Positions 52,995 through 64,000 of a stretch of 64,000 bases of DNA are shown here, piece after piece. A program made the translations under genes and the position numbers. The notes under the pieces were generated by a model. The model made no database searches. It was not told the DNA's origin and worked only from the letters and a program-made list of their open reading frames with translations. This stretch comes from Pseudoflavonifractor sp. GTDB taxonomy: Bacteria > Bacteroidota > Bacteroidia > Bacteroidales > Muribaculaceae. Location of the stretch: assembly GCA_023667145.1 (NCBI GenBank), contig JAMPAQ010000001.1, positions 1,042,912-1,106,911 of the forward strand. Reading direction: 5' to 3'. The stretch's first letter is position 1. Each line of letters begins with the position of its first letter.

Positions 52995-55184
52995 ATGAAA
53001 AAGATTGACCGACAGACCGTACAGCGAATACTCGACACTGCCGACATCGTGGAGGTGGTGAGCGACTTCGTGCATCTCAAGCGACGTGGGTCAGGATATA
53101 TCGGATTATGTCCGTTTCACAATGAGAGGACCCCATCTTTTTCCGTATCCAAGACAAAAAATATCTGCAAGTGTTTCTCGTGTGGCAAGGGGGGCAGCCC
53201 GGTCAACTTCATCATGGAGCATGAACAGCTCAGCTACAATGAGGCCCTGCGCTATCTCGCCAAGAAGTACAATATCGAGATACAGGAACACGAGATGAGC
53301 GACGAGGAACGCCGTCAGGAGAGCGAGCGGGAGAGCATGTTGGCCATCAACGAGTTTGCGATGCAGCACTTCGAGCACAATCTCACCGACACTGCCGACG
53401 GTCGCGACATCGGACTTGCATATTTCCACGAACGCGGCATCAACGAGGCTATGATAAGGCGCTTCCATCTCGGATACTCCCTCGACCGCCGCAACGACCT
53501 CCACGACGCGGCCATCGCCAAGGGATACAGCGAGAAATATCTTGTTGATACCGGTCTATGCTCACGCAATGACCGTGGACAGGTCTATGACCGGTTCAAG
53601 AGCCGCGTGATGTACCCGATATTCTCGGTCTCAGGCAAGGTCATCGCGTTTGGCGGACGCACACTGCGTTCTGACAAGACTGTCGCCAAGTATGTCAACT
53701 CGCCCGAATCGACAATCTACAGCAAGAGCCGTGAGCTCTATGGACTCTATCAGGCCAAGCAGGCTATTGTCAGGCACGACAAGTGTATCCTCGTCGAGGG
53801 ATATATGGATGTCATATCGATGCACCAGTCAGGGGTCGAGAATGTGGTGGCCTCCTCGGGTACATCGTTGACCGAGGGACAGATAAGGCTCATCCACCGT
53901 TTCACCGACAATGTGACAGTCATTTACGACGGCGACGCCGCCGGCATCAAGGCATCCTTGCGCGGCATCGACATGCTGCTTGCCGAGGGGCTGAACGTGA
54001 GGGTACTGTTGCTCCCCGATGGAGACGACCCTGACTCATTTGCCCAGAGCCACTCGGCAACTGAGCTTGAGGAGTATCTTGCAACCCACGAGACCGATTT
54101 CATAAGATTCAAGACCGACATCCTGTTGCGCGGGACGGCCAATGACCCGATACAGCGGGCCAAGGTAATCAACGACATCGTCAGCTCGATATCGGTCATC
54201 CCCGATGAGATCACGCGCAGTGTCTACATCAAGGAATGTAGCCGTATGCTTGAGATTGGCGAGAAAGTGCTCGCGGCACAAGTGGCCCGCCTTTTTGCCG
54301 AAAAGGCCGAGAAGCAGCGACGTGACAGCGAATATCGCCGTGCGACCGACGATACGCTCACACCCGCCTCCAACGCGACAAACCAGTCAGATACGACAGC
54401 CCGGACACCCCATACAGAGGAGAATGTCATCGAAAACAAGGATGACGCGTCGCGGCTGTTGCCATACGAGATGGCGGTGCTGCGTCATGTCCTCAAATAC
54501 GGGATGCTCGATTTTTGCGAGGTAGCCGAAGCTGATGGTTCCACGCGACCCATGAATGTCCTCGACTACGTCACGATGACCCTGCGTGAGGACGACATAT
54601 CGTTCTCAAACGACATGGTCAGACATGCCTTCGACGAGGCACGGAGAGTCAGCATGGCCGATTGGCCCGAGGCGATAGCACGATTCCGAGCCGAGGCCGA
54701 GACCGACCGCAGCCGGTACATAGTCGGCATGGAGGAGTCACTGCGCTCATCCGATGTCGACGTGGCAACCATCCAGCGCAAGGAGCGCGAGCTGATATCA
54801 ATCGCCGACCAACGCCGTGACGAGGCCATCGCCGATTTTGCCGCGTCATTCATACAGCGCTCGCTCATCAACCATCCCGACGACCATATCAGGGCCATAA
54901 CCCTCGACCTCGTCAGCGAGAAATACGTTCTCAGCAAAGTCCACACAAAATACGCCCACATCGAGACCGAGCGCGACCGCCTCGCCGACCTCGTGCCGAG
55001 GGCGGTCTTTGAGCTGAAGGATGCCATCCTCGACTGTGAGATACGTCAAGTGCGCGACCGTCTGCGACAGACCTCCGACCCATCTGACATACACACACTG
55101 ATGTCGCGCCACATCGAGCTGGCACGCATCAAGGCCGAGTTTGCCCGCTACCTCGGCGACCGCATCGTCGCCCCCCGCGACTGA
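52995..55184 (+). CDS. dnaG: DNA primase DnaG
   Basis: This 729-residue enzyme makes RNA primers for replication. The CHC2 zinc finger is at Cys39, His42, Cys60 and Cys63 (LCPFHNERTPSF...CKCFSCGKGG). The RNA polymerase core carries the Toprim motif VEGYMDVISMHQSGVENVVASSGTSLT and VIYDGDAAGIKASLRG. A Ser/Thr-rich linker (about 450-480) precedes a helical C-terminal region that should bind DnaB helicase. It is longer than the usual 580-660 residues because of that tail, as is normal in Bacteroidales. A clean promoter at 52887 fixes the start. Confidence 0.96.
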   Translation: MKKIDRQTVQRILDTADIVEVVSDFVHLKRRGSGYIGLCPFHNERTPSFSVSKTKNICKCFSCGKGGSPVNFIMEHEQLSYNEALRYLAKKYNIEIQEHEMSDEERRQESERESMLAINEFAMQHFEHNLTDTADGRDIGLAYFHERGINEAMIRRFHLGYSLDRRNDLHDAAIAKGYSEKYLVDTGLCSRNDRGQVYDRFKSRVMYPIFSVSGKVIAFGGRTLRSDKTVAKYVNSPESTIYSKSRELYGLYQAKQAIVRHDKCILVEGYMDVISMHQSGVENVVASSGTSLTEGQIRLIHRFTDNVTVIYDGDAAGIKASLRGIDMLLAEGLNVRVLLLPDGDDPDSFAQSHSATELEEYLATHETDFIRFKTDILLRGTANDPIQRAKVINDIVSSISVIPDEITRSVYIKECSRMLEIGEKVLAAQVARLFAEKAEKQRRDSEYRRATDDTLTPASNATNQSDTTARTPHTEENVIENKDDASRLLPYEMAVLRHVLKYGMLDFCEVAEADGSTRPMNVLDYVTMTLREDDISFSNDMVRHAFDEARRVSMADWPEAIARFRAEAETDRSRYIVGMEESLRSSDVDVATIQRKERELISIADQRRDEAIADFAASFIQRSLINHPDDHIRAITLDLVSEKYVLSKVHTKYAHIETERDRLADLVPRAVFELKDAILDCEIRQVRDRLRQTSDPSDIHTLMSRHIELARIKAEFARYLGDRIVAPRD

Positions 55185-55507
55185 CTCACGACATCCCGTA
55201 CCAATTGTATGGGGATTCAAAACCTATATAATAATCACGAATTAGATTACAGAATTTTGTCTCCCGAAAGCGTGCAGGAACTTTTTCGGGGAAAAGTTTG
55301 TTTATTCGGTAATTGGTGTTAACTTTGCAACACCATTGAGGAAAGCATACCCGATATCACGTCCAAAGCCGTAAGCGGGCGATTGCCGACCTCCAACTCC
55401 AACCACCATTTACTATTTATCAACTCTTTGACAGAGAATAGTGTGCCAACGCACACGACAAAGTCTAAACGGACATCTCATTATACATTATACCCCCTTA
55501 ATTGTTT
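55185..55507. other. Intergenic stretch holding the rho promoter and long leader
   Basis: These 323 bases hold no gene that I can support. The only clear element is the rho promoter at 55297-55327; the remaining 180 bases form the rho leader. Confidence 0.7.
55297..55327 (+). promoter_or_regulatory. Promoter of rho
   Basis: TTTG at 55297-55300, a 19-base spacer and TAACTTTG at 55320-55327 are a perfect consensus. The leader to the start codon is about 175 nt, long enough for the Rho-dependent autoregulation known in E. coli. Confidence 0.82.
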
Positions 55508-57568
55508 ATGTACAATATTTCAGATCTCAACGCAATGAGCGACAACGAGCTCAAAACGATTGCAGAATCCATGGGAATCAAGAAAGTCGATTCCGCAGAA
55601 AAGGACGACATCATCTACAAGATACTCGACCAACAGGCCATCGACGTGGCCTCATCGGCCGAGAAAAAACGCCGCACAGCCACCAAGGAGCCTAAGCCAC
55701 GGAAAGAGAGGCAAGCCAAGACACCACAACAGACAAGCGACTCCACTCCGGCCACTGACGACCAGCCTACAGCCGATGCGTCCAAGGAGCCCAAGCGGCG
55801 AGGCCGCAAACCCGGTCAAAAAAATGCCAGCAATGCGGAAAGTCAGGCGGTATCAGAGGCCGTACAGCCGGAGCAGACCGATACAGCTAATGACAATGCC
55901 AATCCTGACACAGCAAGCGGCGAGCCGGCAAGGGAACCCCGCAAACGTGGTCGCAAACCGGCCAATCGCAATACTGCCGACAACAATCAGGAGATAATGC
56001 CGCAACTGCCGACCATTATCGAACAACCTACCGCCGACAGTCACGAGGAGCAGCCCATACCGACATCCGACAACGACCAAGAGGATGGAGACAACACGAC
56101 ACAGGACCGCCCCACTGACACAGTGAACAATTCACCCGTGAACGAGAATCCCGAGGCCGTGCAACTCCAGGAGGACGCTCAGCGTCAACAGGGGCAATCG
56201 AAGTTCAGCCCCAAGAATAACCCCTCGCTCGTCTCATTCTTCCCGCGTGCCGAGGGGCGGCGCTTTGTACCTCGCTCACAGCGTGAGAAAGAGGAGGCCG
56301 CTGCAGCAGCCGCGATTGCCGCTGCAAGCGCCCCCATCATCATCCATGAGCCGGGACAAGAACCCAAGCAAAATAAACAGCAGAAAAAGCAAAAGAACCG
56401 CAACCAGCAGCCACAGCTACAGCAGCCACAGTCGGTGTCACAATACAACTTTGACGGACTACTCAACTCGGTTGGTGTCCTTGAGTTGATGCCTGATGGA
56501 TATGGATTCCTACGGTCGAGCGACTACAACTACCTGTCATCGCCCGACGACGTGTATGTCACCCCGCAGCAGGTAAAGACCTACGGACTCAAGACCGGCG
56601 ATGTAGTCGAGTGTACAATACGGCCGCCCAAGGAGGGAGAGAAATATTTCCCGCTGAGCAACGTGCTCAAGGTCAACGGACGCAACCCGGAGTATATCCG
56701 CGACCGTGTCCCCTTTGAGCATCTCACCCCGCTTTTCCCCGATGAGAAGTTTGACCTCACATCAGGTCGGTCGTGCAACCTCTCGACTCGCGTGGTCGAT
56801 ATGTTCGCCCCCATCGGCAAGGGTCAGCGAGCACTCATAGTCGCACCGCCTAAGACGGGTAAGACAATACTGCTCAAGGATATAGCCAATGCGATTGCAG
56901 AGAACCATCCCGACACATACATCATCATACTCCTCATCGACGAGCGTCCCGAGGAAGTCACCGACATGTCACGTTCGGTCAATGCCGAGGTTATCGCCTC
57001 GACATTTGACGAGCCCGCCGACCGTCACGTCAAGATTGCCTCAATAGTGCTTGAGAAGGCAAAGCGTATGGTCGAGTGTGGTCATGACGTAGTCATATTG
57101 CTTGACTCGATCACCCGTCTCGCTCGCGCCTACAACACCGTCTCCCCCGCGTCAGGCAAGATACTGTCGGGAGGTGTCGATGCCAACGCGTTGCAGAAAC
57201 CTAAGAGATTCTTTGGTGCCGCCCGTAACATCGAGCGTGGAGGGTCGTTGACAATCATCGCCACAGCCCTCACCGAGACATCGTCAAAGATGGACGAGGT
57301 GATATTTGAGGAGTTCAAGGGAACCGGCAACATGGAGCTGCAACTCGACCGCAAGCTGTCCAACAAGCGCATCTTCCCTGCCGTCGACATCACCGCCTCC
57401 TCGACACGACGCGATGACTTGCTGCTGCGTCCCGAGACCCTTAACCGCATGTGGATCATGCGCCGCTTCCTCTCCGACCGCAACTCCATCGAGGCGATGG
57501 AGTTTATCAAGGACCGCATGGAGCGCACGACCGACAACGAGGAGCTGCTCCGCACCATGGGCGATTGA
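55508..57568 (+). CDS. rho: Transcription termination factor Rho with long disordered insert
   Basis: This hexameric RNA helicase of about 686 residues ends transcription. It has an N-terminal SAP-like helix pair ([42 protein letters not shown]) and a region of about 260 residues (about 55-310) rich in Lys, Arg, Pro, Gln, Asn, Asp and Glu. That region includes three KRGRKP-type basic motifs. The RNA-binding OB fold ([26 protein letters not shown]) and the ATPase core follow, with APPKTGKT at 446-453, [13 protein letters not shown] and [21 protein letters not shown]. The ATG at 55508 is preferred over an in-frame TTG at 55502. The insert makes it far longer than the usual 420 residues, as in other Bacteroidetes. 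Confidence 0.96.
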
Positions 57569-57598
57569 CCCCACAACGTTATCCGACACATCATCAAC

Positions 57599-57634
57599 AG
57601 TCCCGTCGCCCATACGAGGCGGCGGGACTTTTTT
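57599..57634 (+). terminator. Intrinsic terminator after rho
   Basis: 57599-57610 pairs with 57618-57629 (12 positions, one G-T wobble) and is followed by TTTTTT. It is a classical Rho-independent terminator at the end of the rho gene itself. Confidence 0.87.
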
Positions 57635-57755
57635 GTCACTACTTGTTTAGGCAAAAGTTAGATAAATTCGCGTCTATTCGCAAGACATACTACTGCAAAT
57701 CAATGGTATACTATTGTATAGCATTTAGATTTCACCTGCTCAGACACGCGATTGC

Positions 57756-57786
57756 TTTCCCACACATATAAAGTCGATTAATTTTG
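57756..57786 (+). promoter_or_regulatory. Promoter of the GH97 gene
   Basis: TTTC at 57756-57759, a 19-base spacer and TAATTTTG at 57779-57786, the same arrangement as at fabI. The start codon is 52 bases further on. Confidence 0.65.
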
Positions 57787-57838
57787 CAATCACAATATAC
57801 AGAGATAATACACTTGTCATCTATCACACCAAACTATC

Positions 57839-59869
57839 ATGAGAACAGGATATACAAAATCTCGCGGCACACGCCTCATCGCTTCCTTGGCAATCGTTCC
57901 CGCCATCATGCTCTCAGGCTGTGGCTCGGCCTCAGTCTACACGCTCAACTCACCCGATGGAAAAACCCGCATCACCGTAAAGGAAGATAAGGGACATCTC
58001 TTTTATAGTGTCACCCGTGACGGCAAGCCGGTCATCAACGATTCACGGCTCTCCATGCGGTTACGCGAGGGCAATCTCGGCGATGATGTCAGCATAACGG
58101 GCACACACCGGGCATCATTCGACGAAAACTGGGATCAGCCATGGGGCGAGGAAGTCACCATACGCAACAACTATAACGAGCTGACAGTGGATCTCGCCGA
58201 AAAAGGAGATGCCGAAAAGAAGTTCTCTGTCATTTTCCGGGCATTTGACGATGGTGTTGGATTCCGTTACGCTGTCCCGGAGCAGAAAAATCTCAGCGAA
58301 GTGACAATTGATGACGAGGATACGCAATTTGCCATCGCCTCCGATGCCACGACATGGTCTATTCCATGGAATCATCCATACTATGAGGCTCTCTATCGCA
58401 AGGCATCACTCAGTGAGATGAGCGACACTGTGGCCGCACCGCTGACCATGCGACTCAATGACTCACTCTACGTGACCATACACGAAGCCGCACTCACCGA
58501 CTACGCGTCGATGAACCTTTTCCGTCCCGATTCCTCCAATCGGCTTGCCTCCTATCTCACGCCATGGTCGACGGGGGAAAAAGTGCGCACACGGACACCA
58601 TTCGTTACACCATGGCGCACTGTGATAATCGCCGAAAAACCCGGAGACCTCATGCTGTCGAGACTGATGCTCAACCTCAACGAACCATGCGCCATCGACG
58701 ACACCTCATGGATAGAACCGGGGCGCTATATCGGTATATGGTGGGCAATCCACATGAAAGACTACACATGGCATCAGGGCCCCAAGCATGGAGCCAATAC
58801 CGCCAACACCAAACGTTACATCGACTTTGCGGCAGCCAACGGCTATCAGGGCGTGCTGGTCGAGGGTTGGAATTACGGATGGGATGGTGACTGGACAGCC
58901 CATGGGCATCCTATATCATTCACACGTCCATATCCCGACTTTGATATAAAGGAAATCACCGACTACGCCCGCAGCAAGGGTGTGAGGCTCGTAGGCCATC
59001 ATGAGACCGGCGGCAATGCCTCGGCCTATGAGAATCAGATTGACAGCGCCATGTCCATGTATGCCTCCATGGGGGTAAACGCCGTCAAGACAGGATATGT
59101 CAACAATCTTCTTGACAACAAGGAGCTGCACGGAAGCCAATACGGCGTGCGCCACTACCGCAAGGTGATTGAGACTGCCGCGCGACATCACATAATGATT
59201 GATAACCACGAGCCGGTGATGCCGACGGGTCTGCAACGCACCTATCCCAACCTCATGACACAGGAAGGTGTGCGCGGTCAGGAGTATGACGCATGGTCAC
59301 CCGATGGCGGCAACCCACCCGAACACACTGTCACCATCCCATTCACCCGCTGTCTCGCCGGACCCGTAGATTTCACGCCCGGTACATTCAATTTCACTAA
59401 TACAGCCGTCCCCACCACGCGCCCAAACACCACATTGGCCAAGCAACTGGCCCTGTCGGTGGTGATATTCAGCCCATTACAGATGTCGTCTGACAAGATT
59501 GAGAACTACGAGGGCCGTCCCGAACTTGAGTTCATCGCCAATTGTCCCGCGACATGGAGCCAGACCGTAGTACCTCACGCATCGATTGGCGAATACGTCA
59601 CTGTCGCACGCAAGAGTTGCGATGACGGCTCATGGTGGATAGGCAGCATCACAAACACCGAGCCGCGAGACCTCACCCTACAACTGTCTTTTCTCGATAA
59701 GGACCGCAAGTACAAGGCTAAGATTTTTGCCGACGGCGAGGATGCCGATTATACCGACAACCCTTACCCTGTCGAGATAACCGAGATAGAGGTCGACAGC
59801 ACCTCCGAACTCCCCCTCCACCTCGCCCGCAGCGGCGGCGCCGCCATCATGATCCACCCTGCATCATGA
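57839..59869 (+). CDS. Glycoside hydrolase family 97 lipoprotein (SusB-like)
   Basis: This 676-residue protein has a lipoprotein signal ending LSGC (Cys28), an N-terminal beta-sandwich (about 30-290), a TIM barrel (about 300-570) and a C-terminal beta domain. SusB of B. thetaiotaomicron uses Glu439, Glu508 and Glu532. Glu389 (GHHETGG), Glu458 (NHEP) and Glu482 (GQEY) occur here with exactly the same spacing (69 and 24), so this is probably an inverting alpha-glucosidase acting on starch- or maltodextrin-type substrates. It stands without SusC/SusD partners in view. The motifs are seen directly; the SusB numbering is from memory. Confidence 0.92.
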   Translation: MRTGYTKSRGTRLIASLAIVPAIMLSGCGSASVYTLNSPDGKTRITVKEDKGHLFYSVTRDGKPVINDSRLSMRLREGNLGDDVSITGTHRASFDENWDQPWGEEVTIRNNYNELTVDLAEKGDAEKKFSVIFRAFDDGVGFRYAVPEQKNLSEVTIDDEDTQFAIASDATTWSIPWNHPYYEALYRKASLSEMSDTVAAPLTMRLNDSLYVTIHEAALTDYASMNLFRPDSSNRLASYLTPWSTGEKVRTRTPFVTPWRTVIIAEKPGDLMLSRLMLNLNEPCAIDDTSWIEPGRYIGIWWAIHMKDYTWHQGPKHGANTANTKRYIDFAAANGYQGVLVEGWNYGWDGDWTAHGHPISFTRPYPDFDIKEITDYARSKGVRLVGHHETGGNASAYENQIDSAMSMYASMGVNAVKTGYVNNLLDNKELHGSQYGVRHYRKVIETAARHHIMIDNHEPVMPTGLQRTYPNLMTQEGVRGQEYDAWSPDGGNPPEHTVTIPFTRCLAGPVDFTPGTFNFTNTAVPTTRPNTTLAKQLALSVVIFSPLQMSSDKIENYEGRPELEFIANCPATWSQTVVPHASIGEYVTVARKSCDDGSWWIGSITNTEPRDLTLQLSFLDKDRKYKAKIFADGEDADYTDNPYPVEITEIEVDSTSELPLHLARSGGAAIMIHPAS

Positions 59870-59961
59870 CACTCCCCGCACCATCCCCCGACACAGCCGA
59901 CCGAAAGCCCTGACATTGGCCAATAATAGGATGGTAACATTAAAAGGAGGCCGTACCAAAC

Positions 59962-60007
59962 GAACTGCACCCCAAAAGTCATTTGTCTAACTTTTGGGGT
60001 GCAGTTC
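59962..60007. repeat. 18-bp perfect inverted repeat beside the IS remnant
   Basis: 59962-59979 is the exact complement of 59990-60007 (GAACTGCACCCCAAAAGT and its reverse), with a 10-base centre. It lies between the GH97 gene and the transposase remnant, has no T-tract, and could be paired insertion-sequence ends or a terminator. Confidence 0.65.
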
Positions 60008-60142
60008 ATGCCATCCCACCCCTAAAATCAATGCAATTAAAATAAGAGTCTGTTTACTTTTAACTGCGATTAAACGTTAGATATGTTTTGTCAAGTGTTT
60101 GATAGTTGCAAAGTCAATCATATCTTCTGCGGATTCCTCAGT

Positions 60143-60810
60143 CTACTCATAATTTTGAGTGGGTCTGCGGAACCCGCCAAGCCATGCATACCTTGTCCCT
60201 ACCACAAGTCCATAGGCAAGTCTGGAGTCATGTCTGCCGACAGGATCAACCCGTCTGCCAAGGATGAATCCGTTTCGGTCAACAACAATACTCCGCTTGA
60301 TGCCCTTTACTTTTTTATTGACACCAAACCCGTTGTCGCTCTTTCGGTTACCCCATTTGACGCTCTGGGTGTCAAGTACCCCGACAGATGGAGTCCCATT
60401 CTGTTTTCTGCTTCTGCGGATTCGCTTGATAGCTCTTTCGATGAAATGCCCTATCCGTCCATTCTTCCGCCATTTGCGGAAGAATTTATATACAGACTGC
60501 CACTTGAGAAAGTCCTTTGGAAGCATACGCCATTGGCAACCGCTGACCAACACATACAGGATTGCCTCAAAGATGAGGCAGAGGGAATATTTGCGTTTGC
60601 GACAATCATTTTCAAAGAGGTAGGTTCACCTACCCATATTCTGCGTTGTTGCAATTTGGGCAAAAGAAAAAAGCACTGAATATCAACTGATTTCAGTGCT
60701 TTGCTGAGATTTTCAAATCCCATCTGTGATTCGCCTGGAGCCATTAAACTCCGACGCTGTATCGTGAGTATCAGGGAGTTATGAGAAGCCATCTGTTGTG
60801 ACTCACGCAT
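60143..60810 (-). pseudogene. IS5-family transposase remnant
   Basis: On the minus strand the frame ending at 60143 reads CRKRKYSLCLIFEAILYVLVSGCQWRMLPKDFLKWQSVYKFFRKW, then VGVLDTQSVKWG and a strand around VVDRNGFILG. These are the N-terminal (G-C-Q-W-R-x-L-P) and first DDE-Asp (DTQSV) regions of IS5-type transposases. The upstream part (SKALKSVDIQCFFLLPKLQQRRIWVGEPTSL, from 60810) is in another frame, joined near 60610 by a -1 shift. The C-terminus breaks off after HDSRLAYGLVVG, before the second Asp and the Glu. A -7 box (TAACTTTG, minus strand) lies at 60862-60869. The gene cannot be functional in its present form. Confidence 0.72.
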
Positions 60811-60861
60811 ATCTCACGCTCATACTTCAATGTTCTTCACCGGAATGCAATTCCGTTATTG

Positions 60862-60869
60862 CAAAGTTA
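60862..60869 (-). promoter_or_regulatory. -7 box upstream of the transposase remnant
   Basis: TAACTTTG on the minus strand matches the -7 element and lies 52 bases before the ATG at 60810. No TTG is found at the -33 position. Confidence 0.4.
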
Positions 60870-60942
60870 ATAAATTATTTCCAATCCTCCATCGCTCAGC
60901 GTGTTAAAAATCCTTTGGTTCATCTTCGGCGGGGACGGAGGC

Positions 60943-62256
60943 TTATGATTCCATATCATCAAGCGAAAGACCTACATAGCCGATTTTCCAACCTTTCTGT
61001 TTCCGGCAGATGGTTTCGGACTTCGCTTCAAGTTTGTGGAGGTCTATCCGATTTTTGTTTCGCTTGATCTCGCCGATGATGATTTCGCGGTCTGCCTCAT
61101 TTACGGCAATCAGGTCAATCTCGTTGCGGCCGTCTTTTTCCCAATAGTTCGTCACGATGTTGTAAAGTCCGGTTTCGCGGTAGAACTGACGGAAGTAGCG
61201 TTCAAGTATCCAGCCGGAGAATGTGTCGTAGTCAGCACCAACTTTCTCACGCACATAATTCAGATTGCCAATTTCCACGGCACTGCGGTATTTATAGATG
61301 AACCGAAACCAGAAGTTGAGGAAATTGTCTTTGATGCCATATTTCACATTGCGGCTTCCCGGTGCGGCAAGATATGGACGATAGCGGTAAAGAAGGTCGT
61401 AGGTGTTTTCGAGTTTGTCAAGATAACCTCCGGCCTCAATGCCTGTATAGGATTTGATCTCTCCTCGCTCGTTGAACCCTGACGCTATTGCGGAAAGGAT
61501 TGAAAAATAGTTGCCGTAATCTTTGCCAAACTCATCAGACAGCAGTTCTTTCCCCTCCTCAATAAAATAGGAGCCAAAAGAGAGGACAGAGTCCAGAATC
61601 TTATCCTTGGTGAAAGCTCCGGTCTGCACTAATTGCTCTACATATTTTGCGACACCGCCTGTTATCATGTACATTGCCAACAAGTCGTCCGGAGTATAAT
61701 CGGGATTGTTGTCGTGCATAATCTCACTCAGTGTCCGCAGCGGAAATTCACGCAGACGCATTCTTGAAGTAGCACGTCCATAAAGAGGCTCCTTGCGGTC
61801 ATCGAAGATTTTTGTCATCATCGAGTATAGCGAGCCACATATTATAAGGTTTATCCGAGCTTCTTGTTTATTGGAGTCCCATACATTCTGCATCTCGCTG
61901 AAGAATGCCTCGTTGACATACTTGAAGTTCTGAAATTCATCGAACACAAGCGTGAAGTGTCGTCGTCTGGCAATCTGCATTATGGCAGAAAAGAGCTTTG
62001 CCATGCTTGTAAATTCGCCAATCTCCTCACCAAGACGGTCACGGATAGTATCGGCAAGCTCCGCACAAAGGAGAGTTTCGCTTTTCCTTGCTACAAAGAA
62101 GTAAATCATATCGTCAGCACCATAAGCGTGCTTTATAAGCGTGGTTTTGCCTATGCGTCTGCGACCGGTGATTACTGTCATCTGCGCGTATTGCCTCGAT
62201 GTTTCCTCAATTTTTCTGAGCGTCTGTGTTTCTATTTCTCTGTCGTAGAATTTCAT
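60943..62256 (-). CDS. AAA ATPase with DUF234-type nuclease-like C-terminus
   Basis: This 437-residue protein belongs to the 'archaeal-type' ATPase family (PF01637 plus DUF234). Walker A GRRRIGKT is at residues 31-38, Walker B LVFDEFQN near 103, and the sensor-like block LIICGSLYSMMTKIF follows. The middle is a winged-helix region (about 245-300), and the C-terminal DUF234 domain carries a PD-(D/E)xK-like signature (Glu-Ile-Asp-Leu-Ile ... Ile-Ile-Gly-Glu-Ile-Lys). These genes are frequent in gut Bacteroidales, often near mobile DNA, and their role is unproven. A strong promoter lies upstream, with a 31-bp dyad over the transcription start. Confidence 0.88.
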   Translation of the reverse strand: MKFYDREIETQTLRKIEETSRQYAQMTVITGRRRIGKTTLIKHAYGADDMIYFFVARKSETLLCAELADTIRDRLGEEIGEFTSMAKLFSAIMQIARRRHFTLVFDEFQNFKYVNEAFFSEMQNVWDSNKQEARINLIICGSLYSMMTKIFDDRKEPLYGRATSRMRLREFPLRTLSEIMHDNNPDYTPDDLLAMYMITGGVAKYVEQLVQTGAFTKDKILDSVLSFGSYFIEEGKELLSDEFGKDYGNYFSILSAIASGFNERGEIKSYTGIEAGGYLDKLENTYDLLYRYRPYLAAPGSRNVKYGIKDNFLNFWFRFIYKYRSAVEIGNLNYVREKVGADYDTFSGWILERYFRQFYRETGLYNIVTNYWEKDGRNEIDLIAVNEADREIIIGEIKRNKNRIDLHKLEAKSETICRKQKGWKIGYVGLSLDDMES

Positions 62257-62261
62257 ATTAC

Positions 62262-62292
62262 TGCAACGGCTGTTACTGTAACCGCTGTTGCA
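62262..62292. promoter_or_regulatory. Palindrome over the transcription start of the ATPase gene
   Basis: A 31-bp dyad centred on 62277 has arms TGCAAC/GTTGCA (62262-62267 and 62287-62292) and GTTAC/GTAAC (62272-62276 and 62278-62282). It touches the -7 box and covers the likely start of transcription, so it suits an operator or a 5' mRNA hairpin. Confidence 0.65.
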
Positions 62293-62321
62293 AAATTACA
62301 CAAAAGCCATAAGACTACCAA
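62291..62321 (-). promoter_or_regulatory. Promoter of the DUF234 ATPase gene
   Basis: On the minus strand TTGG (62318-62321), 19 bases and TAATTTTG (62291-62298) form a consensus promoter 35 bases before the start codon at 62256. Confidence 0.78.
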
Positions 62322-62435
62322 ATTTCCCAATACCGATTGACAGATTATTTAGTGTTAAAAACTTAGGAGAGGCACGACTTCACTACTTAATATTTCCAGA
62401 GGATTCATTGTTTGCTCGGCTATTACAAAACATCT

Positions 62436-62490
62436 TGTTCAAAAATATCGAATTGTTCAATCGTATTGAACTGCAATATTATATTGAACA
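62436..62490. repeat. 55-bp dyad of four GTTCAA half-sites, 18-bp spaced
   Basis: GTTCAA occurs at 62437-62442 and 62455-62460, and its complement TTGAAC at 62466-62471 and 62484-62489. Both pairs are exactly 18 bp apart and the whole is symmetric about 62463. The outer half-sites extend to TGTTCAA/TTGAACA. It looks like a binding array for a dimeric or tetrameric DNA-binding protein. Confidence 0.7.
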
Positions 62491-62517
62491 GGCCCAAGCA
62501 AGGCACAGGATACCCAT

Positions 62518-62586
62518 ACTTCCTGATTTGTGAGTAGTTCACTTTCTCATTTGTGAGGTTTTGACTTCCTGATTTATGAATAACCT
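62518..62586. repeat. Three tandem 23-bp iteron-like repeats
   Basis: ACTTCCTGATTTGTGAG (62518), ACTTTCTCATTTGTGAG (62541) and ACTTCCTGATTTATGAA (62564) begin at exact 23-bp intervals, with variable 6-bp ends. Copy 2 differs from copy 1 at two of 17 positions, and copy 3 also at two. Iterons of this size often bind a replication, transfer or excision protein. Confidence 0.75.
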
Positions 62587-62611
62587 ACAATATTCACTGG
62601 CGAAACGAGGC

Positions 62612-62838
62612 GGAGATGCAACGCTTGGCTGTGCTGGGTTGAGTGCCGTCAAAAGGTGACGGGCTGCGCCTGACACCCATTGACCGCACTCTGCATAGTA
62701 AAAGCGGGCTAAACACCGGTAGCCTCAACGCCGCGTGAGGATGCGCCGGGGACGTCGCTGTACCTCGCACGACTCAGATCGGCAACCCGTGTTCTTCACG
62801 CCCGCTTCATAGTTCTTTTCATAGGTCGTTGCATCTCC
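62612..62838 (+). ncRNA. Candidate structured RNA of about 227 nt
   Basis: The ends of this GC-rich stretch are a perfect 12-bp complement (62612-62623 with 62827-62838). Inside it 62703-62709 pairs with 62800-62806 (AGCGGGC/GCCCGCT), and local hairpins form at 62646-62662 (CCGTC-type, 5 bp) and 62723-62740 (CCTCA/TGAGG). No reading frame of note is present. Nested long-range pairs around local hairpins are what a folded RNA shows. The strand is assigned only because the downstream genes read plus. No known RNA family was recognised. Confidence 0.5.
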
Positions 62839-62865
62839 ACATCGTTGTCAGGGATACCATTTTCG

Positions 62866-63162
62866 TATGTCTGTCATTCAGTGTCACCCTGCGGGGCTGC
62901 GCTGGCTCTACTTTCATGCTGATTATAAGCGGAGTTCAAAGTATGTTCGCTCGTGGCGATGAACGTGCCGGAACGGGGTATTCTTTGCCTTCCGGCTGAA
63001 AAAATCTCCACACTTCCCGGTGGTCAGGTAGTATTTTTTAAGCCGTGAGGCGAACACCCCTTTGCTTTCCGTCACGCTGCGGGTTCATCGAGCGAACAAA
63101 CTTCAAACTGCGATTATACGCATTAAAAAAATATCGCCTTATGACACTGAATGACAGACATA
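62866..63162. repeat. Large inverted repeat (21-bp perfect arms) enclosing further stems
   Basis: 62866-62886 is the exact complement of 63142-63162. Inside, TGTTCGCTCG (62944-62953) pairs with 63089-63098, ATGAAC (62959-62964) with 63083-63088, and GCCGGAA (62967-62973) forms a hairpin with 62990-62996. The right arm overlaps the first codons of the gene starting at 63141. A cruciform, an oriT-like site or a regulatory leader are possible. Confidence 0.75.
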
Positions 63163-63356
63163 TTAAAAATTCGAGCTTCACTCCTTCACCAGCTCAAACC
63201 GCATTAAAAAAGGTGGCAAAGGTGGTTGTGGTTATCCTCGGTGCTATTGTCGGTCTGATGGTGTGGGCGGTTGTAAAGCCGATATTCCGAGGTGTGGGGT
63301 GGCTAATCTCCATGCTGACGATGATGGCGATAATCTATTGGTTAATAACATTCTAA
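63141..63356 (+). CDS. Small membrane protein of a mobile element
   Basis: This 71-residue protein (MTLNDRHIKNSSFTPSPAQTALKKVAK) has one or two membrane segments (VVVVILGAIVGLMVWAVV and LISMLTMMAIIYWLI). The family is not recognised. The ATG at 63141 lies inside the right arm of the large inverted repeat, so RNA folding could control its translation. A longer frame from 63045 would run through the repeat and has no support. pcfK follows after 12 bases, which makes it the first gene of that operon. Confidence 0.6.
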   Translation: MTLNDRHIKNSSFTPSPAQTALKKVAKVVVVILGAIVGLMVWAVVKPIFRGVGWLISMLTMMAIIYWLITF

Positions 63357-63368
63357 AATATTACGACT

Positions 63369-63824
63369 ATGGCAAAGACAATGAAATCAAACGACTCTGC
63401 AATCGCAGTAATGCAGCAGATGTTGCAGGAGCGTTGCATCGCTGAACTGATGTTCGCAATCAAAATGGCTAATCCCTCAAAGTCAATGGAGGGCGCAATA
63501 AACTACCTATGCTCCCAAATCCAAAAGAGCGGACTATGCGTGGTTGACAATGATACCGTGATGAACCTTCTGGTACATTACTTTGACGAGAACGAGATTG
63601 AGGAAGGCGCAAAGGTAAACTGCAACATAGTTGTCAGCAAGCCGGAACTTTCCGAGGAAGATAAAGCCAATCTCAAAGAGAAGGCAATGGAGCAGTACAA
63701 GGAAGAACAGCTCCGAGAACTCCGCAGACAGAGCCAACCGAAGGCGACCGCACCCAAGCATACCGCCACCGCACCGAAAGCAGGAGCAGAAATCAATGTT
63801 CAACCAAGTCTTTTTGACCTCTAA
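63369..63824 (+). CDS. PcfK-like protein
   Basis: This 151-residue protein matches the PcfK-like family (PF14058) of Bacteroidales conjugative and mobilizable elements. The N-terminal helical part MAKTMKSNDSAIAVMQQMLQERCIAELMFAIKMANPSKSMEGAINYLCSQ and the central CNIVVSKPELSEEDKANLKEKAMEQYKEEQ are typical. The Pro/Ala/Thr-rich tail ends in a QPSLFDL motif, similar to short C-terminal sliding-clamp-binding peptides (Q-x-x-L-F). It is followed 11 bases later by pcfJ, and the pair is a reliable marker of mobile elements; its biochemical role is unknown. Confidence 0.82.
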   Translation: MAKTMKSNDSAIAVMQQMLQERCIAELMFAIKMANPSKSMEGAINYLCSQIQKSGLCVVDNDTVMNLLVHYFDENEIEEGAKVNCNIVVSKPELSEEDKANLKEKAMEQYKEEQLRELRRQSQPKATAPKHTATAPKAGAEINVQPSLFDL

Positions 63825-63835
63825 AACTTACGGAT

Positions 63836-64000
63836 ATGTTAGCAAGAACTAAAAATCAGAAGAATATAATGTCAGCGGGAGGGTATCTTCGCCCTCTCAC
63901 TGCCAAGCAGAAAGAATGGGCTTTCCTCAACAGCGTTGAACATTTCGCCTATCGCCACCCAAAATCCCACAAATGTACCTGTATGGACTGCGGTCATCAG
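63836..64000 (+). CDS. PcfJ-like protein, 3' truncated by window edge
   Basis: The first 55 codons run in frame to the last base of the window. MLARTKNQKNIMSAGGYLRPLTAKQKEWAFLNSVEHFAYRHPKSHKCTCMDCGHQ fits the N-terminus of PcfJ-like proteins (PF14284), including the C-x-C-x-x-C cluster of the zinc-binding part. It follows pcfK by 11 bases. The gene should continue for several hundred codons beyond the window. Confidence 0.8.
   Translation, partial: MLARTKNQKNIMSAGGYLRPLTAKQKEWAFLNSVEHFAYRHPKSHKCTCMDCGHQ

Follow-up and report, generated by a model that had tools for sequence, protein, structure and literature searches.

An evolutionarily maintained folded element that accompanies pcfK/pcfJ in conjugative elements of gut bacteria

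The pcfK/pcfJ locus

The right end of the window (the whole 64,000-nt stretch of a Muribaculaceae contig analysed here) carries the start of a pcfK/pcfJ operon, preceded by two folded stretches that we call domains A and B (Table 1). The small ORF that opens the operon has no Pfam match. A complete pcfJ is found in a related locus (L032:2748-4019); the protein has an N-terminal zinc ribbon with four invariant cysteines and weak zinc-ribbon matches, and for its predicted structure (pLDDT 79.6, pTM 0.41) the best PDB match was no better than E 0.08. Further on, genes for TraO, a Toprim protein and TraQ, together with a lysozyme gene on the opposite strand, mark the locus as the remnant of a Bacteroidales conjugative element, an ICE with genes of the Tra and primase-like (Toprim) kinds. 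In two ICEs 22-27 kb separate domain A from the relaxase gene, where tra and mob genes diverge, and at such a distance domain A was rejected as a candidate oriT.

Table 1. Features at the right end of the window. For the two folded domains the strand given is the one that folds better; the pcfK operon reads on the plus strand.
Feature	Position	Strand	Partner or extent	Basis
Domain A	62596-62841	minus	folded element closed by helix P1	
P1 helix, 5' arm	62612-62623		pairs with 62827-62838	sequence, covariation, arm diversity
P1 helix, 3' arm	62827-62838		pairs with 62612-62623	sequence, covariation, arm diversity
Local hairpin, GAGTGCCGTC...GACCGCACTC	62641-62691			two consensus helices, 95% of cells paired
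P3 long-range helix, 5' arm	62703-62709		pairs with 62800-62806	sequence
P3 long-range helix, 3' arm	62800-62806		pairs with 62703-62709	sequence
P4 helix, 5' arm (AACAC)	62712-62716		pairs with GTGTT, 62789-62793	consensus fold
P4 helix, 3' arm (GTGTT)	62789-62793		pairs with AACAC, 62712-62716	consensus fold
Inner hairpin with apical tetraloop	62734-62771			two consensus helices
Domain B, hairpin of about 300 nt before pcfK	62860-63168	minus	outer arms 62860-62886 and 63142-63168	
Small membrane-protein ORF (71 aa), first gene of the operon	63141-63356	plus		open frame; kept upstream of pcfK in relatives
pcfK	63369-63824	plus		PF14058, E 4.8e-29
pcfJ	63836-64000	plus	cut by the window edge	PF14284, E 8.4e-36

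The DNA to the left of domain A is changing cargo, often defence or toxin-antitoxin-like genes (names given partly by eye, with RloB and HipA putative). A pair of AAA-ATPase and RloB-like genes, recognised by eye, stands directly left of A in different genera (L049:5896-8775, L048:129-1828, L036:2268-4001, L040:45-1903), possibly as a defence hotspot, and integrase genes or fragments (Arm-DNA-bind_5/SAM-like, Phage_integrase) are found near some copies. In the window itself, an ORF resembling an IS5-type transposase fragment (60143-60553, minus strand) lies between chromosomal genes and a DUF234 ATPase gene. One otherwise similar ICE (L052:2553-19364) contains three IS copies, IS66-like by eye, of which two interrupt pcfK/pcfJ and one lies beside mobilization genes.

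Fold, distribution and extent of the conserved unit

Our covariance model of domain A matches the window at 62611-62838 with 171.8 bits. Both long-range helices on which the sequence-only reading was built are perfect, namely the 12-bp closing helix P1 (GGAGATGCAACG with CGTTGCATCTCC) and the 7-bp helix P3, whose equivalents in relatives use other letters (by eye). The consensus helix that holds P4 has double changes in 6 of its 10 pairs, and the apical tetraloop of the inner hairpin, GGGA in the window, is GTGA or GAGA in relatives, a GNRA-type loop that is on the plus strand. When compared with dinucleotide shuffles, the fold has a z of -4.5 on the plus strand and -6.2 on the minus strand, with none of 200 shuffles as good. 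Inside the local hairpin, a C/C mismatch (G/G on the other strand; 62646-62650 with 62682-62686) sits within a paired helix and is kept in nearly all relatives; it is possibly a protein contact or a bulge motif.

The sequence-only reading had named covariation of the helices in homologous elements as the test on which it would stand or fall, and the comparison came out strongly in its favour. An alignment of 20 relatives yields a consensus fold of 50 pairs, in which 93.3% of cells are paired and 26 pairs have changed on both sides; compensated cells number 147, where shuffles give 50.9 (sd 5.7) and slid partners 12-30. In relatives P1 is rebuilt with unrelated letters (AGAGAGGGAGCGGTC/GACCGCTCCCTCACT; AGAGGCGTGGCGGCTC/GAGCCGCCACGCCACT): the 72 distinct full-length copies of A that we analysed have 53 distinct 5' arms and a median of 11 Watson-Crick pairs, where shuffled ends mostly give 5-7. 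Evolution has maintained the stretch 62612-62838 as a folded nucleic-acid element, which goes with the pcfK/pcfJ pair in conjugative elements of gut bacteria.

Domain B covaries as well, with at least two Watson-Crick types at 34 of 78 pairs. Its arms match each other over 27 bp at 92.6%, and the first codons of the operon, including the start codon, lie within its 3' arm. Promoter inversion through this inverted repeat was considered and rejected, B being inverted in no relative.

Parts of the region were found by nucleotide search in 46 of 297 Muribaculaceae genomes, and the covariance model of A gave well over 100 matches, in 65 of the 297 genomes and 15 of the family's 30 genera; in the rest of the order, 393 genomes of 207 genera from other families, it had no match. 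Plasmid and phage collections contained no similar DNA, and no description of the folded element was found in the literature that we searched. That the sequence-only reading recognised no known family agrees with Rfam 15, in which, across 55000-64000 of the window and 11 homologous loci, tRNAs alone reached the gathering score and relaxed thresholds returned nothing relevant. The proposed link to pcfK/pcfJ was borne out too: A lies upstream and in the same orientation in 22 of 22 full-length Muribaculaceae-type pcfJ loci, collected by PcfJ protein alone and preceded by over 2 kb of DNA. A is absent upstream of four distant PcfJ loci in Bacteroidaceae/Prevotellaceae, where the DNA upstream of pcfK/pcfJ has neither a covariance-model match nor a convincing structured stretch. 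Most copies with enough flanking DNA are followed on the same strand by the small ORF, pcfK and pcfJ, typically about 0.3-1 kb off, and as a rule there is one copy ahead of pcfK/pcfJ; some copies stand alone, and in some others, for example L036 and L103, foreign genes separate A from B. A Muribaculaceae-type pcfJ also turned up on a contig assigned to a MAG of uncultured Clostridia (L195), by binning error or by transfer.

The helices of the sequence-only reading were confirmed, but its limits for the element, 62612-62838, were not. Measured from the model start, the similarity of near-identical copies ends some 15 nt to the left and some 245 or 325 nt to the right, and the flanks on both sides are unrelated between copies. 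The unit therefore consists of domain A (about 260 bp), in most cases followed by another hairpin, C (about 85 bp), for a full length of about 340 bp. In pairwise comparisons the left edge is sharp, about 15 nt before the model match. Hairpin C is missing from the window copy and its nearest relatives and present in most relatives; the alignment of the whole of domain C was too poor for one consensus, and consensus folds were obtained for subfamilies only. The iterons that had been taken as neighbours of the element sit in flanking DNA that is not common to relatives. What adjoins it at 62528-62580 is three short imperfect repeats (TCCTGATTTGTGAG-like), which are absent from relatives and therefore belong to host or cargo DNA outside the conserved unit.

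Some copies depart from this arrangement. Shortened copies joined to unrelated DNA occur at L033:874-925, L034:1971-2023, L035:2015, L039:2012, L042:1978 and L110:5107, the one in L042 beside integrase-gene fragments and the one in L110 fused into the small ORF through a deletion. The breakpoints of incomplete copies were rejected as nick sites, since they are scattered and in some cases result from simple deletion into the small ORF. Elsewhere, two copies in the same orientation bracket cargo (L093:5239-8535; L094:5435-8045; L103:5203-13071; L105:3155-13419), with ThrE/LysR genes and apparent metal-efflux genes among it, and the same type of cargo adjoins A in another genome (L109). A degenerate copy (L117:5062-5246) is found at a distance of about 100 bp from its genome's tmRNA gene (G007:C2:22040-22440), which suggests that the element integrated at ssrA.

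Strand preference and promoter motifs

The sequence-only reading took the fold to be that of an RNA. A maintained fold is what we find, but RNA read with the pcfK operon is not what it favours, since the opposite strand folds better in most copies. A is more stable on the strand opposite pcfK in 54 of 72 copies with RNA parameters and 61 of 72 with DNA parameters (17 of 19 representatives at 85% identity), and B in 23 of 23; since the copies share ancestry, they do not count as independent cases, and the strand preference of A is moderate. Our single-strand DNA control, Frpo of F-type plasmids, favours the template-strand side in 20 of 20 copies, the same side relative to the gene as A and B. 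The reverse lean is seen in two RNA controls from Muribaculaceae, of which only 0 of 25 copies of RNase P RNA and 7 of 28 of tmRNA fold better on the strand opposite to the gene.

The union of predicted pairs gives the same picture, its G-U to A-C cells standing at 126:226 for A, 25:179 for B and 24:139 for Frpo, as against 335:122 for RNase P RNA and 288:149 for tmRNA. Neither A nor B combines an excess of G-U over A-C with a better fold on the pcfK-transcribed strand, as a structured RNA transcribed with pcfK should. It should be noted that a count limited to pairs predicted on both strands, which gave 28:28 for A and 90:18 for RNase P RNA, was dropped because tmRNA, a true RNA, gave 28:30; we relied on strand energies and union counts instead. 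The fold data fit single-stranded DNA or a minus-strand RNA, and they speak against an RNA read with pcfK.

Of 20 ordinary genes in the window, 10 are preceded by the Bacteroidetes -33/-7 motif in our scan (1.3 expected). The motif is absent from A+C on either strand (0/72 copies); beyond C it occurs on the minus strand in 2 of 72 (1.2 expected), and upstream of A in 5 of 72, not clearly above chance (3.1 expected). B has it in 0 of 27 copies on the plus strand and 3 of 27 on the minus strand (1.9 expected). Since both flanks of the unit change between copies, the promoter of a dedicated RNA would have to be inside the unit. To judge from these motif counts, neither a dedicated RNA nor the operon appears to have a recognisable promoter of this kind, which is supporting evidence only, as half of the ordinary genes lack the motif in the same scan.

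A proposed single-strand DNA element and its rivals

Our proposal, which we rate slightly short of an even chance, is that RNA synthesis starts at cis-acting elements of single-strand DNA in the Muribaculaceae ICE: domain A, together with C in copies that have it, and domain B. A fold that favours the template strand, the lack of a standard promoter and the obligate coupling to the operon fit an element that acts when single-stranded. A, C and B would fold once the template strand of pcfK/pcfJ becomes single-stranded, in conjugative transfer or rolling-circle replication, and the folded domains would then offer duplex and loop structure where RNA synthesis begins; the product could be a primer RNA for the second strand and/or the mRNA made early from the operon of small ORF, pcfK and pcfJ. 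Were transfer to start where the tra and mob genes diverge and proceed in the direction of pcfJ, as we predict, the strand opposite pcfK would be the one transferred. That DNA is the molecule at work, that this strand is the one transferred and that synthesis starts on it is what we infer from these features. Several observations weigh against the proposal: the GNRA-type loop is on the plus strand; an antisense RNA would show the same strand lean, which for A is moderate; the relaxase gene of two ICEs lies 22-27 kb from A, so that a place in the leading region would be conjectural; and there is no Frpo-like sequence or promoter motif in the stems, so that the Frpo mechanism is brought in by analogy.

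A structured noncoding RNA made from A and/or B in the direction opposite to pcfK would show the same lean, both in energies and in the G-U and A-C counts. If B were transcribed in this way, the RNA would run antisense to the beginning of the operon and could control pcfK/pcfJ, much as the antisense RNA FinP controls traJ. Alternatively, such an RNA could act in transfer like the sgm-sRNA, a precedent for an element-encoded RNA needed in mobilization (PMC9299015). However, the minus-strand motif is missing from all 72 copies of A+C and not above chance beyond C or in B, and the GNRA-type loop is on the other strand, which leaves this explanation improbable in our view. The loop would be correctly placed in a sense leader of the pcfK operon, with B as a riboregulator that sequesters the first start codon and A as an upstream leader domain; in its favour are also the start codon within the 3' arm of B, the covariation of the B arms and the orientation of all linked copies, which is that of pcfK. 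Yet the plus strand folds worse in 23 of 23 copies of B and 61 of 72 of A, foreign genes come between A and B in some copies (such as L036 and L103), and the motif upstream of A is not clearly above its expected count, so that we regard a sense leader as quite improbable. Overall, A and B are more likely a switch that acts on single-stranded DNA during transfer than an RNA leader.

It is also conceivable, if very unlikely, that A+C is an attachment site of folded single-stranded DNA in the manner of integron attC, at which the ICE takes up cargo modules. The unit has sharp edges (about -15 to +245/+325) between unrelated flanks, and same-orientation copies bracket cargo (ThrE/LysR, efflux, GNAT) in L093, L094 and L103. 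Against this, a single copy upstream of pcfK/pcfJ is the rule, and shortened copies break at scattered points, some of them plain deletions. An attC-like site with an internal crossover was rejected: there are only two mosaic pairs among the 72 copies, with no recurrent crossover inside A. A does resemble attC in being a covarying folded DNA unit repeated beside changing cargo, but it is larger and usually present once per element.

Among known systems, single-strand DNA initiation elements are the closest in kind to the element described here. Such promoters of F-type plasmids, Frpo/ssi, were reportedly described by Masai and Arai in 1997. Frpo is a single-strand DNA promoter that starts primer RNA or early mRNA (PMC11541004). 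Like Frpo/ssi, the element is made up of inverted repeats that span a few hundred nt immediately before conjugative-element genes, and its fold favours the template strand of the downstream genes, as we measured in 20 Frpo copies; this second likeness is one of strand preference alone. In contrast to Frpo, it has branched domains (A and C) besides one long hairpin (B), and it occurs in another phylum and another type of element; no plasmid record matches 62560-63200, although the collection includes thousands of Frpo copies, and the -35/-10 promoter elements found in the Frpo stem have no counterpart in our motif scan (0/72 in A+C, 0/27 on the plus strand of B). Given the different sequence, architecture and host and the lack of a promoter motif in the stems, we do not class the element as Frpo. 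The sso1 of ICEBs1 is likewise an orientation-specific stem-loop DNA of an ICE, in which structure can outweigh sequence (PMC4595007). The likeness in function is here an analogy, and A and B are larger than sso, with no sequence relation shown and a tight coupling to pcfK/pcfJ. Finally, the sgm-sRNA of SGI1, an experimentally shown RNA next to oriT (PMC9299015), is also a non-coding determinant of an integrative element that is linked to transfer genes; A and B differ in being known from sequence alone and in a fold that favours the strand opposite to the genes.

To go further, A and B might represent a new class of single-strand DNA element, with a branched A+C and a long hairpin B, that starts RNA synthesis on the incoming strand of Bacteroidales ICEs without a standard promoter and is recognised by the element's own proteins, PcfK and PcfJ being establishment proteins that are expressed first. 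We regard this fuller version as doubtful. Candidate recognisers of the folded elements would be PcfJ, with its zinc ribbon, and the Toprim/primase-like protein encoded nearby. We know of no role for PcfK/PcfJ in conjugative elements of gut Bacteroidales, and the start of expression and of second-strand synthesis in these elements is undescribed in the literature that we searched. If A and B were instead an antisense RNA, they would make up a large RNA family missing from Rfam. As a fold that is coupled to pcfK/pcfJ and has a strand preference like that of Frpo, they may offer a direct place to study early expression.
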